Below, one piece after another: positions 12,261-15,505 of a stretch of 25,995 nucleotides of DNA (position 1 is the first letter of the stretch; the number at the start of each line of letters is the position of its first letter). Origin of the DNA: a virus. The position numbers and the translations under genes are program-made. Below the pieces are notes generated by a model, which was given only the letters and a program-made list of their open reading frames with translations, made no database searches and had not been told where the DNA came from. Where the stretch lies: positions 1 through 25,995 of the IMG/VR virus record IMGVR_UViG_3300009164_000318. One strand, written 5' to 3'.

Positions 12261-13157
12261 ATGCAAAAGTTCTCCGAGTACCTGCTAGACGGCTCGGGAA
12301 ACCCGATTACGACTGCGGACATCGCGGTCTATTACTTTGGCACAACCACGCTTGCGCCGCTGTTTGCAACGGCGACCGGCGTGGCAATTGCCAATCCGAT
12401 TACAAGCCAGCTCAGCACTGGCCTGTTCGAGTTTTACGCGGCGGACGGCAAGTACACGTTGGCCATTTCTGAGCCAGGGTATCAGCCGCGCTCGCTGACA
12501 GTTGAAATCATCAACGACCAGAACCCGGTTTATTCGACCCTGAGCGGCGCATACCAGGCCGTGCGCTCGATTGAATTTAACCCCGCGCAAACTGCGCTGC
12601 GGATCACGCACGGGGTTGATGCAACTGTTGCCGAAGTGCCTTTGATGGATAACCAAGGGCCGATTCATTCGACAGCAACCGGCGTTTACCAAAACGTCAA
12701 GTCTCTGGAATTTAACCCCGCGCAAACTGCGCTGCGGGTGACTTACGGCGATACGCCAACTGTGGCCGAAGTGCCAATTTCTGATGACAACCCGGTAAAT
12801 CAAGTCATCGCCATAGCTTGCAGCAATGAAACCACGCCCTTGGATGTGGGAGCGGCCAAAGTTACCTTTCGCACGCCGTTTGCTTTCAAGCTGACGGGCA
12901 TTCGTGCCAGCGTCACCACGGCCCCGACCGGCGCGGCGTTGATTGCCGATGTCAAGTCAAACGGCACCACGCTTATGGCGGCCAACAAATTGCGCATTGA
13001 CGCAAGCACCAAGTCAACGGTAGCAGCCGCAGCACAGCCCACGCTGACAACCACTGCGCTAAGCAGCGACGCCGAAATCACCATTGACATCACCCAAGTC
13101 GGCGGTACGGTTGCCGGAGCGGGCCTAAAGGTTTATTTGATTGGATATCCAGCATGA
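12261..13157 (+). CDS. Fibre-like virion protein with internal duplication, 298 aa
   Basis: Three parts are visible. Residues 1-86 resemble the N-terminal particle-anchoring domain of phage fibres (N-P-I-T and L-F-E-F-Y-A-A-D-G-K-Y pattern). Residues 88-131 and 133-177 are two copies of a 45-residue repeat sharing E-F-N-P-A-Q-T-A-L-R and V-A-E-V-P. Residues 182-298 match a C-terminal beta domain common in many phages (T-F-R-T-P-F-A, R-A-S-V-T-T-A-P-T-G, D-A-E-I-T-I-D-I-T-Q-V-G, A-G-L-K-V-Y-L-I-G). The protein probably sits on the particle surface and may bind a receptor or a partner fibre. The stop overlaps the start of the LamG/propeller gene (ATGA at 13154), so the two are likely made together. 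Confidence 0.65.
   Translation: MQKFSEYLLDGSGNPITTADIAVYYFGTTTLAPLFATATGVAIANPITSQLSTGLFEFYAADGKYTLAISEPGYQPRSLTVEIINDQNPVYSTLSGAYQAVRSIEFNPAQTALRITHGVDATVAEVPLMDNQGPIHSTATGVYQNVKSLEFNPAQTALRVTYGDTPTVAEVPISDDNPVNQVIAIACSNETTPLDVGAAKVTFRTPFAFKLTGIRASVTTAPTGAALIADVKSNGTTLMAANKLRIDASTKSTVAAAAQPTLTTTALSSDAEITIDITQVGGTVAGAGLKVYLIGYPA
12573..12737 (+). repeat. Exact 30-base duplication marking a 135-base repeat unit
   Basis: The same 30 bases (beginning GAATTTAACCCCGCGC) occur at 12573-12602 and 12708-12737, exactly 135 bases apart, inside the fibre-like gene. The rest of the unit has drifted at the DNA level but is conserved as protein. Confidence 0.85.
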
Positions 13158-15505
13158 TGCTGAATCCGTACCGGTTTGGTGGCGGCGCGGTAGACCCGTA
13201 TTACGCCAGCGTCAGCATGCTGCTGCATTTCGAGGGCACCAACACCAGCACCACCATCACAGACAGCAGCCCCATCGCTCTACAGTGGACTGCGGTCGGC
13301 GACGCGGCCATCAGCACCACCCGCAGCAAGTTCGGCAACAGCAGCCTGCGCCTGAATGGCGCGGGCTATGTGCGGCCTGCGGATATGGCGGTGGCCGATC
13401 CGTATTTTGATCTGGGCACCGGCGCGTGGACGCTGGATATGCAGGTGTGGCTGGACAATACAAGTGGGGTGCAGACGGTTTACAGCCGCACAACTCCCAA
13501 GCCAAGCATTCTGTTGCTTAACGGTAACGGTACCAATGGGTCTACCGCCATTGCCGACAAGTCTGGCAGCGGTACGGCGGTGCAGCTTTATGGTGATACC
13601 AAGCTGAGCAACACGGTGACGTTTTTTAATACCTGCTCCATTTATTTGGACGGTACGGGCGATTGCGTGCGCATTCCGGCCAGTGCAGCTAACAATATCG
13701 GATTGCAGGATTTTACTTTTGCGGCGTGGGTTTACTTGCAAACCTATGGCAATGGCTATACCAATTTGCTATCCGCTTTTGAGACAGCATCCGGCGGACC
13801 AACGCAGATTCCGTTGCTGTTGCGAACTGATGGAAGACCTTGGTTTTATCAAGATGGCGGCAGTGGTTGGTTGGATTCAAGCATTGCCATTCCACTCAAC
13901 ACGAAGACCTATTTTGAAATCGGTTCAAAAATAATTGGAGCCCAACGCTGGTGGTATCTGTTTGTCAATGGCCAATTGGCCGGCAGTGCAGCGACTGCTG
14001 CAACAAGCATTCTCAATCGCGATTTTTACGTTGGAGGCCATAAAGATTTTTATCACGGCTCACTGCGTGGCTATTTTGACGATGTGGAGCTGCTGGTAGG
14101 CACCTGCCGCCATACCACGGCCTACACCGTGCCCACTGCAGCAGCCGCAAAGGGGGGGGCGAAGTTGGCGCTGGAATTGCAAGGCGGCGGCCCGGCGCTG
14201 GTGTTGCGTAATGCGGCGGGGGTGGCGACTACGGTAGCAAACATGACTGTTACTTACAGCACCGCCGTAACCCAATTGCGCTTGGTTGGCACCACCGGCA
14301 ATTATTACGGCAGCGCCATCCATCCATCGGGCGCATTTATTTGCGTTGCAGTGCAAAACCTCAACAAAATTGAATGCTATTCCATTGCATCAGACGGAGC
14401 GCTGGCTTTAGTTAGCTCCATCACGGTAGATTCAAGCCCTTGGATTTTGGCGTTTCACCCTAACGGAAACTATTTATATTGCACATGCAATGGCGCAAAT
14501 ACTATCAATAAAATAGATTTTAGTAGCGCTGGAGCATTATCGAATAAATCATCTTATGCCGGATTTTCTGGTGCTTTGGGCCTAGGCATTACAAGCAATG
14601 GATATTTGTTTGTTGCGAATCGAAATGCAAATACAGTTTCAATGTGTTCTATTGACGCAGCGGGTGTGCCTACTAAATTAAATGATTATGCGACAGGTGA
14701 TGGCAATTATAAATTGTGTGTAAGCCCTGATAACTTAAACGTCTACGTTGCAAATTATGGCAACGGAAGCATTAGTCAATATCAAATCAGCGGCGCAACC
14801 TTGGTTTCTTTGGGTACTGTTTCTGGCGCACAGCCTGATACGGTGGCCATTCACCCCAATGGAAAATACTTGTATTCTGGAAATGATAGCTCAAACGTCA
14901 TCAGCACATATTCTCGTGATTTGACTTTGCGCCCTACGGGTGCGCTGGTAAAAATCAATGACTTATTAAATACCGCAAATAATGCAAACGAAGCCATTGT
15001 TTCGCCCGACGGCAATAGTTTATATGTTGCTTGTTGGGGCAATGGATTATATAGATACAGTATCAATCAAACGACCGGATTACCTACATTTGACGGGCAA
15101 ACAACCGCTTTAGGTACGGTGCGAAATGTTACTGTGTCGCTTGATAATAAATATGTTTTTATTTCGTCGCTAGATTCAAAACTGTATGAATTTGCGCGCA
15201 GTTTTACCTCGGTCAATAACTCGCCCCTAACCCCCGCCACCTGGACCCAAATAACGGCCCGCCGCAGCGTCAGCAACGGCATAGGCACCGTCACCCTGGA
15301 CGTAGCCGGTACCACCGTGGCCACCGGAACTTTCAGCGACGCGCTGGACTTTGCCGCTACCGACGTGGTGACTATCGGCGCGCAACTGGTCAGCGGCAGC
15401 GCCAGCCAGTTTTTTACCGGCAACATTGATGAGGCGCGGCTGACCAAAAACGTGGCGCGTGCAAGCGCGGTGCAGACTGCGGCGTGGCCGGATGCGGCCA
15501 GCTGA
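13154..15505 (+). CDS. Large adhesin-like protein: split LamG domain holding a second LamG and a seven-bladed beta-propeller
   Basis: This 783-aa protein is a probable receptor-binding or surface-adhesion component. Residues 20-112 are the first half of a LamG/concanavalin-like domain (M-L-L-H-F-E-G-T, S-S-L-R-L-N-G, W-T-L-D-M-Q-V-W). Residues 118-330 are a complete second LamG (L-L-L-N-G-N-G-T through Y-F-D-D-V-E-L-L). Residues 333-368 look like the middle strands of the first LamG. Residues 369-690 hold seven repeats of about 45 residues with H-P-x-G or S-P-D-x followed by Y-V-A-N, the pattern of YncE/lactonase-like propellers. Residues 695-783 are the last half of a LamG (W-T-Q-I, T-V-T-L-D-V-A-G, F-T-G-N-I-D-E-A-R-L-T-K). 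It overlaps the upstream fibre gene by 4 bases. The propeller part is AT-rich, and a G8 run lies at 14153-14160. Function as adhesin is inferred. Confidence 0.75.
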   Translation: MMLNPYRFGGGAVDPYYASVSMLLHFEGTNTSTTITDSSPIALQWTAVGDAAISTTRSKFGNSSLRLNGAGYVRPADMAVADPYFDLGTGAWTLDMQVWLDNTSGVQTVYSRTTPKPSILLLNGNGTNGSTAIADKSGSGTAVQLYGDTKLSNTVTFFNTCSIYLDGTGDCVRIPASAANNIGLQDFTFAAWVYLQTYGNGYTNLLSAFETASGGPTQIPLLLRTDGRPWFYQDGGSGWLDSSIAIPLNTKTYFEIGSKIIGAQRWWYLFVNGQLAGSAATAATSILNRDFYVGGHKDFYHGSLRGYFDDVELLVGTCRHTTAYTVPTAAAAKGGAKLALELQGGGPALVLRNAAGVATTVANMTVTYSTAVTQLRLVGTTGNYYGSAIHPSGAFICVAVQNLNKIECYSIASDGALALVSSITVDSSPWILAFHPNGNYLYCTCNGANTINKIDFSSAGALSNKSSYAGFSGALGLGITSNGYLFVANRNANTVSMCSIDAAGVPTKLNDYATGDGNYKLCVSPDNLNVYVANYGNGSISQYQISGATLVSLGTVSGAQPDTVAIHPNGKYLYSGNDSSNVISTYSRDLTLRPTGALVKINDLLNTANNANEAIVSPDGNSLYVACWGNGLYRYSINQTTGLPTFDGQTTALGTVRNVTVSLDNKYVFISSLDSKLYEFARSFTSVNNSPLTPATWTQITARRSVSNGIGTVTLDVAGTTVATGTFSDALDFAATDVVTIGAQLVSGSASQFFTGNIDEARLTKNVARASAVQTAAWPDAAS
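14153..14160 (+). repeat. G8 homopolymer inside the LamG/propeller gene
   Basis: Eight consecutive G residues lie at the join between the second LamG domain and the returning strands of the first. The frame as given reads through (K-G-G-A-K). A one-base slip here would truncate the protein before the propeller, so it is a possible phase-variation or sequencing-error site. Confidence 0.6.

Follow-up and report, generated by a model that had tools for sequence, protein, structure and literature searches.

The open reading frame at positions 13154-15505 (+ strand) of the window, by which we mean the whole 25,995-base phage contig analysed here, encodes a 783-aa product that is probably a virion-associated adhesin in which one LamG scaffold is split by a second LamG (B) and by a seven-bladed propeller, its three pieces folding together. 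In the architecture we propose, the scaffold would be a single LamG (ConA-like jelly-roll) domain preceded by the N-terminal peptide MMLNPYRFGG. The second, complete LamG would be inserted in the loop that follows the 'QTVYSR' strand, past scaffold residue ~113, and a complete lactonase/YVTN-type propeller in the loop ahead of the 'WTQITARR' strand (residue 697). According to this view, the three scaffold pieces (A1, A2 and A3) most likely fold together within one chain, and B and the propeller are most likely displayed from two of its loops, where they would provide further sites for binding receptors or glycans. The N-terminal peptide most likely anchors the protein to the product of the overlapping upstream gene, and the inserts would have been acquired by recombination. 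The insert borders fall at about residues 113/114, 330/331, 372/373 and 688/689 (Table 1), and B and the propeller occupy two different loops of one LamG. The initial annotation had described two nested insertions; there are indeed two whole inserts in one LamG, but because they lie in separate loops the insertions are serial, neither being within the other. The interpretation of A1, A2 and A3 as a single split scaffold is supported by the agreement of profile complementarity, codon composition, insert-free homologues together with the rarity of lone LamG halves, and a second phage protein with an insertion at the same loop.

Table 1. Features of the adhesin gene and its upstream partner. Positions are those of the window; unless a Pfam family is named, profile positions and bit scores refer to whole-protein matches to the phage LamG profile described in the text.
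Feature	Positions	Strand	Residues	Matches and models	GC3
A1: N-terminal tag MMLNPYRFGG and opening half of scaffold LamG	13154..13492	+	1-113	Residues 14-113 = profile 2-99, 87.5 bits; pLDDT 82-96 from ~residue 11	.79
B: complete inserted LamG	13493..14143	+	114-330	Residues 120-330 = profile 10-219, 115 bits; PF13385 above cut-off	.52
A2: middle strands of scaffold LamG	14144..14269	+	331-372	Assigned by position, length and GC3; weak sequence support	.71
Inserted seven-bladed Lactonase/YVTN-type beta-propeller	14270..15217	+	373-688	PF10282, 81 bits; 7 blades; strand 376-378 placed to close last blade	.38
A3: closing half of scaffold LamG	15218..15502	+	689-783	Residues 676-769 = profile 126-208, 33.9 bits; PF13385 32.6 bits alone; pLDDT 77-92	.78
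Upstream partner gene, 298 aa	12261..13157	+		4-nt overlap with adhesin gene; last ~118 aa are a conserved domain	

Using a LamG profile built from 180 phage LamG domains out of viral contigs, we obtained three matches to the whole protein (Table 1). The second is a complete domain, and the first and third, in A1 and A3, cover complementary spans of the profile with zero overlap. A full-length match for the scaffold arises only once A1, A2 and A3 are joined: the scripted join gave a single continuous match to profile positions 2-208 of 222 at 134.3 bits, comparable to the 120 bits of the intact inner LamG scored alone. From the order of motifs, the initial annotation had read the first 112 residues as the opening of a LamG only, residues ~118-330 as a complete second LamG and residues ~697-765, beyond the propeller, as the closing half of the first, with the pieces falling into normal LamG order once the inserts are removed, and all of this was borne out by the profile matches. 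The joined scaffold is a better match than B for 117 of the 180 intact phage LamGs, the best of which align across its whole length at ~31-36% identity. Shuffling A3 lowered the joined score to 99 bits and shuffling A1 to 37, whereas with A2 shuffled it was still 130.2 +/- 1.7 bits, which leaves A2 poorly supported by its own sequence. The middle strands that the initial annotation placed at ~334-345 were thus not recognised by sequence alone, and the weak assignment of A2 to the scaffold draws mainly on its position, its composition and its length, which is near that of the equivalent stretch in intact LamGs (31.5 +/- 3.7). Pfam reports for the product one LamG (PF13385, best stretch 166-313; 58.2 bits for the whole protein against a cut-off of 27.6) and one Lactonase (PF10282, 376-682), the two kinds of family to which the initial annotation had proposed comparing the parts, and A3 clears the PF13385 cut-off by itself.

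Apart from one 100% identical contig, we found no close relative of the whole 783-aa protein, and none in bacterial genomes. A comparison with insert-free homologues, also proposed in the initial annotation, was nonetheless possible within the same gene context. Locus L025 encodes a 234-aa protein that starts with MMLNPYRFGG and has one uninterrupted LamG, and locus L033 a 275-aa protein with FLNPYRFGG and likewise one uninterrupted LamG. The gene directly upstream of each ends in a ~118-aa domain that shares 51-53% identity with the end of the window's upstream gene, and in L025 the two genes overlap by 4 nt, as they do in the window. The window's upstream gene also contains, at 12525-12775, two tandem 116-nt copies that are 74% identical and spaced by 135 nt.

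The ~118-aa domain at the end of the upstream gene is present in many phages, where it lies just upstream of LNPYRF-tagged lectin-like proteins. At the 65 loci where the start of the downstream protein could be scored, the motif NP[YF]R[FY] occurred within the first 60 residues of 33 downstream proteins and a looser form in 54, as compared with 0/489 (strict) and 16/489 (loose) other ORFs. The proteins behind the tag are very diverse, and most have LamG- or other lectin-like domains where inspected. At two loci (L033 and L179) the cassette directly follows a GTA/Rcc01698-like tail-tip protein. Taken together, the shared tag, the diverse lectin-like proteins and the tail-tip neighbours point to a host-recognition cassette in which the tag would act as a common docking peptide. 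Our search of open-access papers found no phage paper on the LNPYRF motif. Cassettes with an LNPYRFGG-like tag were seen in the window (12261-13157 plus 13154-13183) and at L025, L033, L036, L027, L032, L028 and L131-L209. Longer proteins also occur behind the same upstream gene (L181, 1386 aa; L205, 677 aa, which matches LamG; L148/L149/L152, 1052-1075 aa; L197, 797 aa) and are candidates for further enlarged adhesins.

We have assumed that the propeller has a binding rather than an enzymatic role. It is conceivable, though in our estimation unlikely, that a protein of the same architecture is instead a capsid decoration or other structural protein, or a lactonase-type enzyme. The contig codes for a P22-like portal protein and an internal virion protein, and the cassette sits between head and head-tail genes, so that capsid decoration is possible; the propeller, for its part, resembles 6-phosphogluconolactonases. 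On the other hand, in L007, a phage with 65% identity in the internal virion protein, the flanking genes are adjacent and the upstream and adhesin genes are both absent from the same place, the cassette follows tail-tip proteins in other phages, and very diverse lectin-like domains stand behind one tag, all of which argue for the adhesin. The absence was noted at L007 1869-2672; this phage has a 753-aa tail-type protein a few genes further on. The adhesin gene was not seen in any of the related phages found via the internal virion protein.

The differing origins of the inserts are apparently still readable in codon composition. GC3 is indistinguishable between A1 and A3 (p=1), and the scaffold differs from B (p=1e-8) and from the propeller (p=5e-21), as it does at fourfold sites (p=3e-4 and p=3e-12, respectively). 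A domain-blind segmentation of GC3 into five segments (residues 1-101, 102-310, 311-389, 390-684 and 685-783) put its breaks at 101, 310, 389 and 684, near the domain borders, with the BIC marginally favouring a 4-segment model (1025.3 vs 1026.7). The GC3 of the propeller is well under that of every equal-length window in the other tested genes (minimum.49); that of B is low, yet inside their range (minimum.49). A difference in GC3 was also seen between B and the propeller (p=.001), which suggests that they were acquired separately. A search for flanking repeats marking the insertion borders found none.

A second phage protein, of 944 aa (L111:3485-6316), also has an outer LamG split by a complete LamG (208 bits) at the same loop. 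Its outer N-part extends up to profile position 105 and its C-part starts from 101, and the outer pieces, when joined, gave a single match of 44.1 bits, as compared with at most 25.3 for shuffled controls. The outer LamG of this protein differs from the window's scaffold in belonging to another subfamily, in having neither a propeller insert nor a GC3 contrast, and in being embedded in a larger protein, which may be a tail protein. Its insertion is independent of that in the unrelated window protein. It was the only LamG-in-LamG found by our insertion test among 82 complete LamGs with enough flanking sequence, a test that misses the window protein itself because the last piece of its scaffold lies past the propeller. 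Within this sample the architecture is as uncommon as the initial annotation had supposed, with one other case in 82 testable domains, but loop-inserted binding domains as such have a precedent in the evolved Dits discussed below. The initial annotation had also raised the possibility that each part occurs elsewhere alone as a complete domain. In the loci used for this control, with the window's own copies left out, we counted 240 complete LamGs and only 3 interior N-halves without a following C-half, so lone halves are rare in this sample.

These results bear on whether A1 and A3 might be remnants of two LamGs from a decayed tandem array that do not co-fold, which would leave B and the propeller as the only real domains. 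Tandem LamG arrays are frequent in these phage loci, and the weak sequence support for A2 fits such a reading. However, we find this very improbable because A1 and A3 are exactly complementary, without overlap and with equal GC3, the reading frame is undamaged and motifs are conserved in both pieces, the joined match is as good as that of an intact domain, and interior N-halves are nearly absent elsewhere.

Structure models recover the inserted propeller and are compatible with a single split scaffold. A joint MAFFT alignment combining LamG halves with relatives of the inner LamG and of the propeller was dropped because it merged fragments at wrong places, and we therefore used separate alignments of the scaffold and of the propeller for modelling. 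With nine propeller relatives, AlphaFold confidently placed a propeller of seven four-stranded blades at 376-682, comprising 27 strands over 384-681 plus the first strand, 376-378, in position to close the last blade (Table 1); all regions other than the propeller are unreliable in this model because no alignment covered them. The seven-repeat propeller that the initial annotation placed at ~369-690 was thus recovered, with its borders corrected to 373-688, and the PF10282 match lies well above its cut-off of 21.7 bits. The best Foldseek matches of the model are propellers of YVTN and 6-phosphogluconolactonase structures, the closest being a 333-aa phage propeller (A0A6J5SZJ1; TM 0.86 by target, 27% identity). 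An 879-aa protein of an uncultured Caudovirales phage in BFVD (A0A6J5R6I7) has a related lactonase propeller and ~550 more residues, and may share the architecture. When LamG halves were aligned on A1 and A3, both pieces were modelled well (pLDDT in Table 1), with B and parts of the propeller poor. Since such an alignment presupposes the homology of A1 and A3 to LamG, this model is supportive rather than independent. That the scaffold pieces pair across the chains of an oligomer, each LamG being completed by a neighbouring subunit, strikes us as very unlikely: many phage adhesins are trimeric and inserts of this length would permit a swap, but an inserted LamG and a velcro-closed propeller, here with strand 376-378 placed to close the last blade, have their termini close together, which makes pairing inside one chain easy.

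If the interpretation of a single scaffold folding within one chain is correct, the protein offers a clear case of two whole foreign domains within one small phage binding domain for which insert-free homologues are at hand, and it shows how phages can add binding parts without rebuilding the scaffold. It also makes testable the ideas that phage adhesins gain binding sites via loop insertion instead of end-to-end fusion, and that LamG loops are natural grafting sites, which would be useful in protein design. A broader proposal, which we put forward tentatively and hold to be possible rather than probable, is that phages repeatedly use the LamG loop that follows the 'liskR' strand (profile ~100) as a docking site for inserting whole binding domains. 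On that proposal the window protein would be an adhesin with three sites, one each in the scaffold LamG, the inner LamG and the propeller, and would belong to a mobile two-gene cassette whose common LNPYRFGG docking peptide keeps interchangeable lectin-like heads attached to the virion. With such a tagged cassette as a guide, many lectin-like phage proteins listed as 'hypothetical' could be annotated as candidates for host-recognition heads.

That phage adhesion proteins can take up binding domains in their loops is already known from the evolved Dits of lactococcal P335 phages and skunaviruses and of Lactobacillus phage J-1. There, loops of a beta-sandwich scaffold house carbohydrate-binding modules. 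The N- and C-terminal portions of that scaffold can be aligned with the uninterrupted protein, and the insert has been shown to enhance adsorption and to broaden the host range (PMC9692632, PMC10688798). The window protein shares with them a binding domain in a scaffold loop and the existence of uninterrupted homologues, and it is most likely a virion adhesin analogous to the evolved Dits. It is not itself a Dit: neither Pfam nor PHROGs gave a Dit family match for the 783-aa product. In an evolved Dit, a galectin domain belonging to a distal tail ring protein serves as scaffold, whereas here the scaffold is a tagged LamG protein of a phage with a P22-like portal, and it carries two unlike inserts, a LamG and a propeller. 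Other phage LamG/ConA-like proteins (PF13385; Aphanizomenon phage CL131 gp036, S-SKS1 SWZG_00008 and the proteins of L033 and L025, which share the window's N-terminal tag and upstream gene) have the same domain, but uninterrupted. Propellers are likewise found in the phage receptor-binding proteins phi11 Gp45, PRD1 P2 and phiKZ gp131 (PMC4901313), which resemble the window protein in having a propeller in a host-recognition protein, if that is indeed its role. The described phage propellers, however, take the form of five-bladed platforms, of a distorted head domain or of a C-terminal domain, whereas that of the window is seven-bladed, of lactonase type and set in a LamG loop. What is new here, within a known kind of protein, is that a LamG has received two whole domains unlike each other, accompanied by compositional evidence of their foreign origin.
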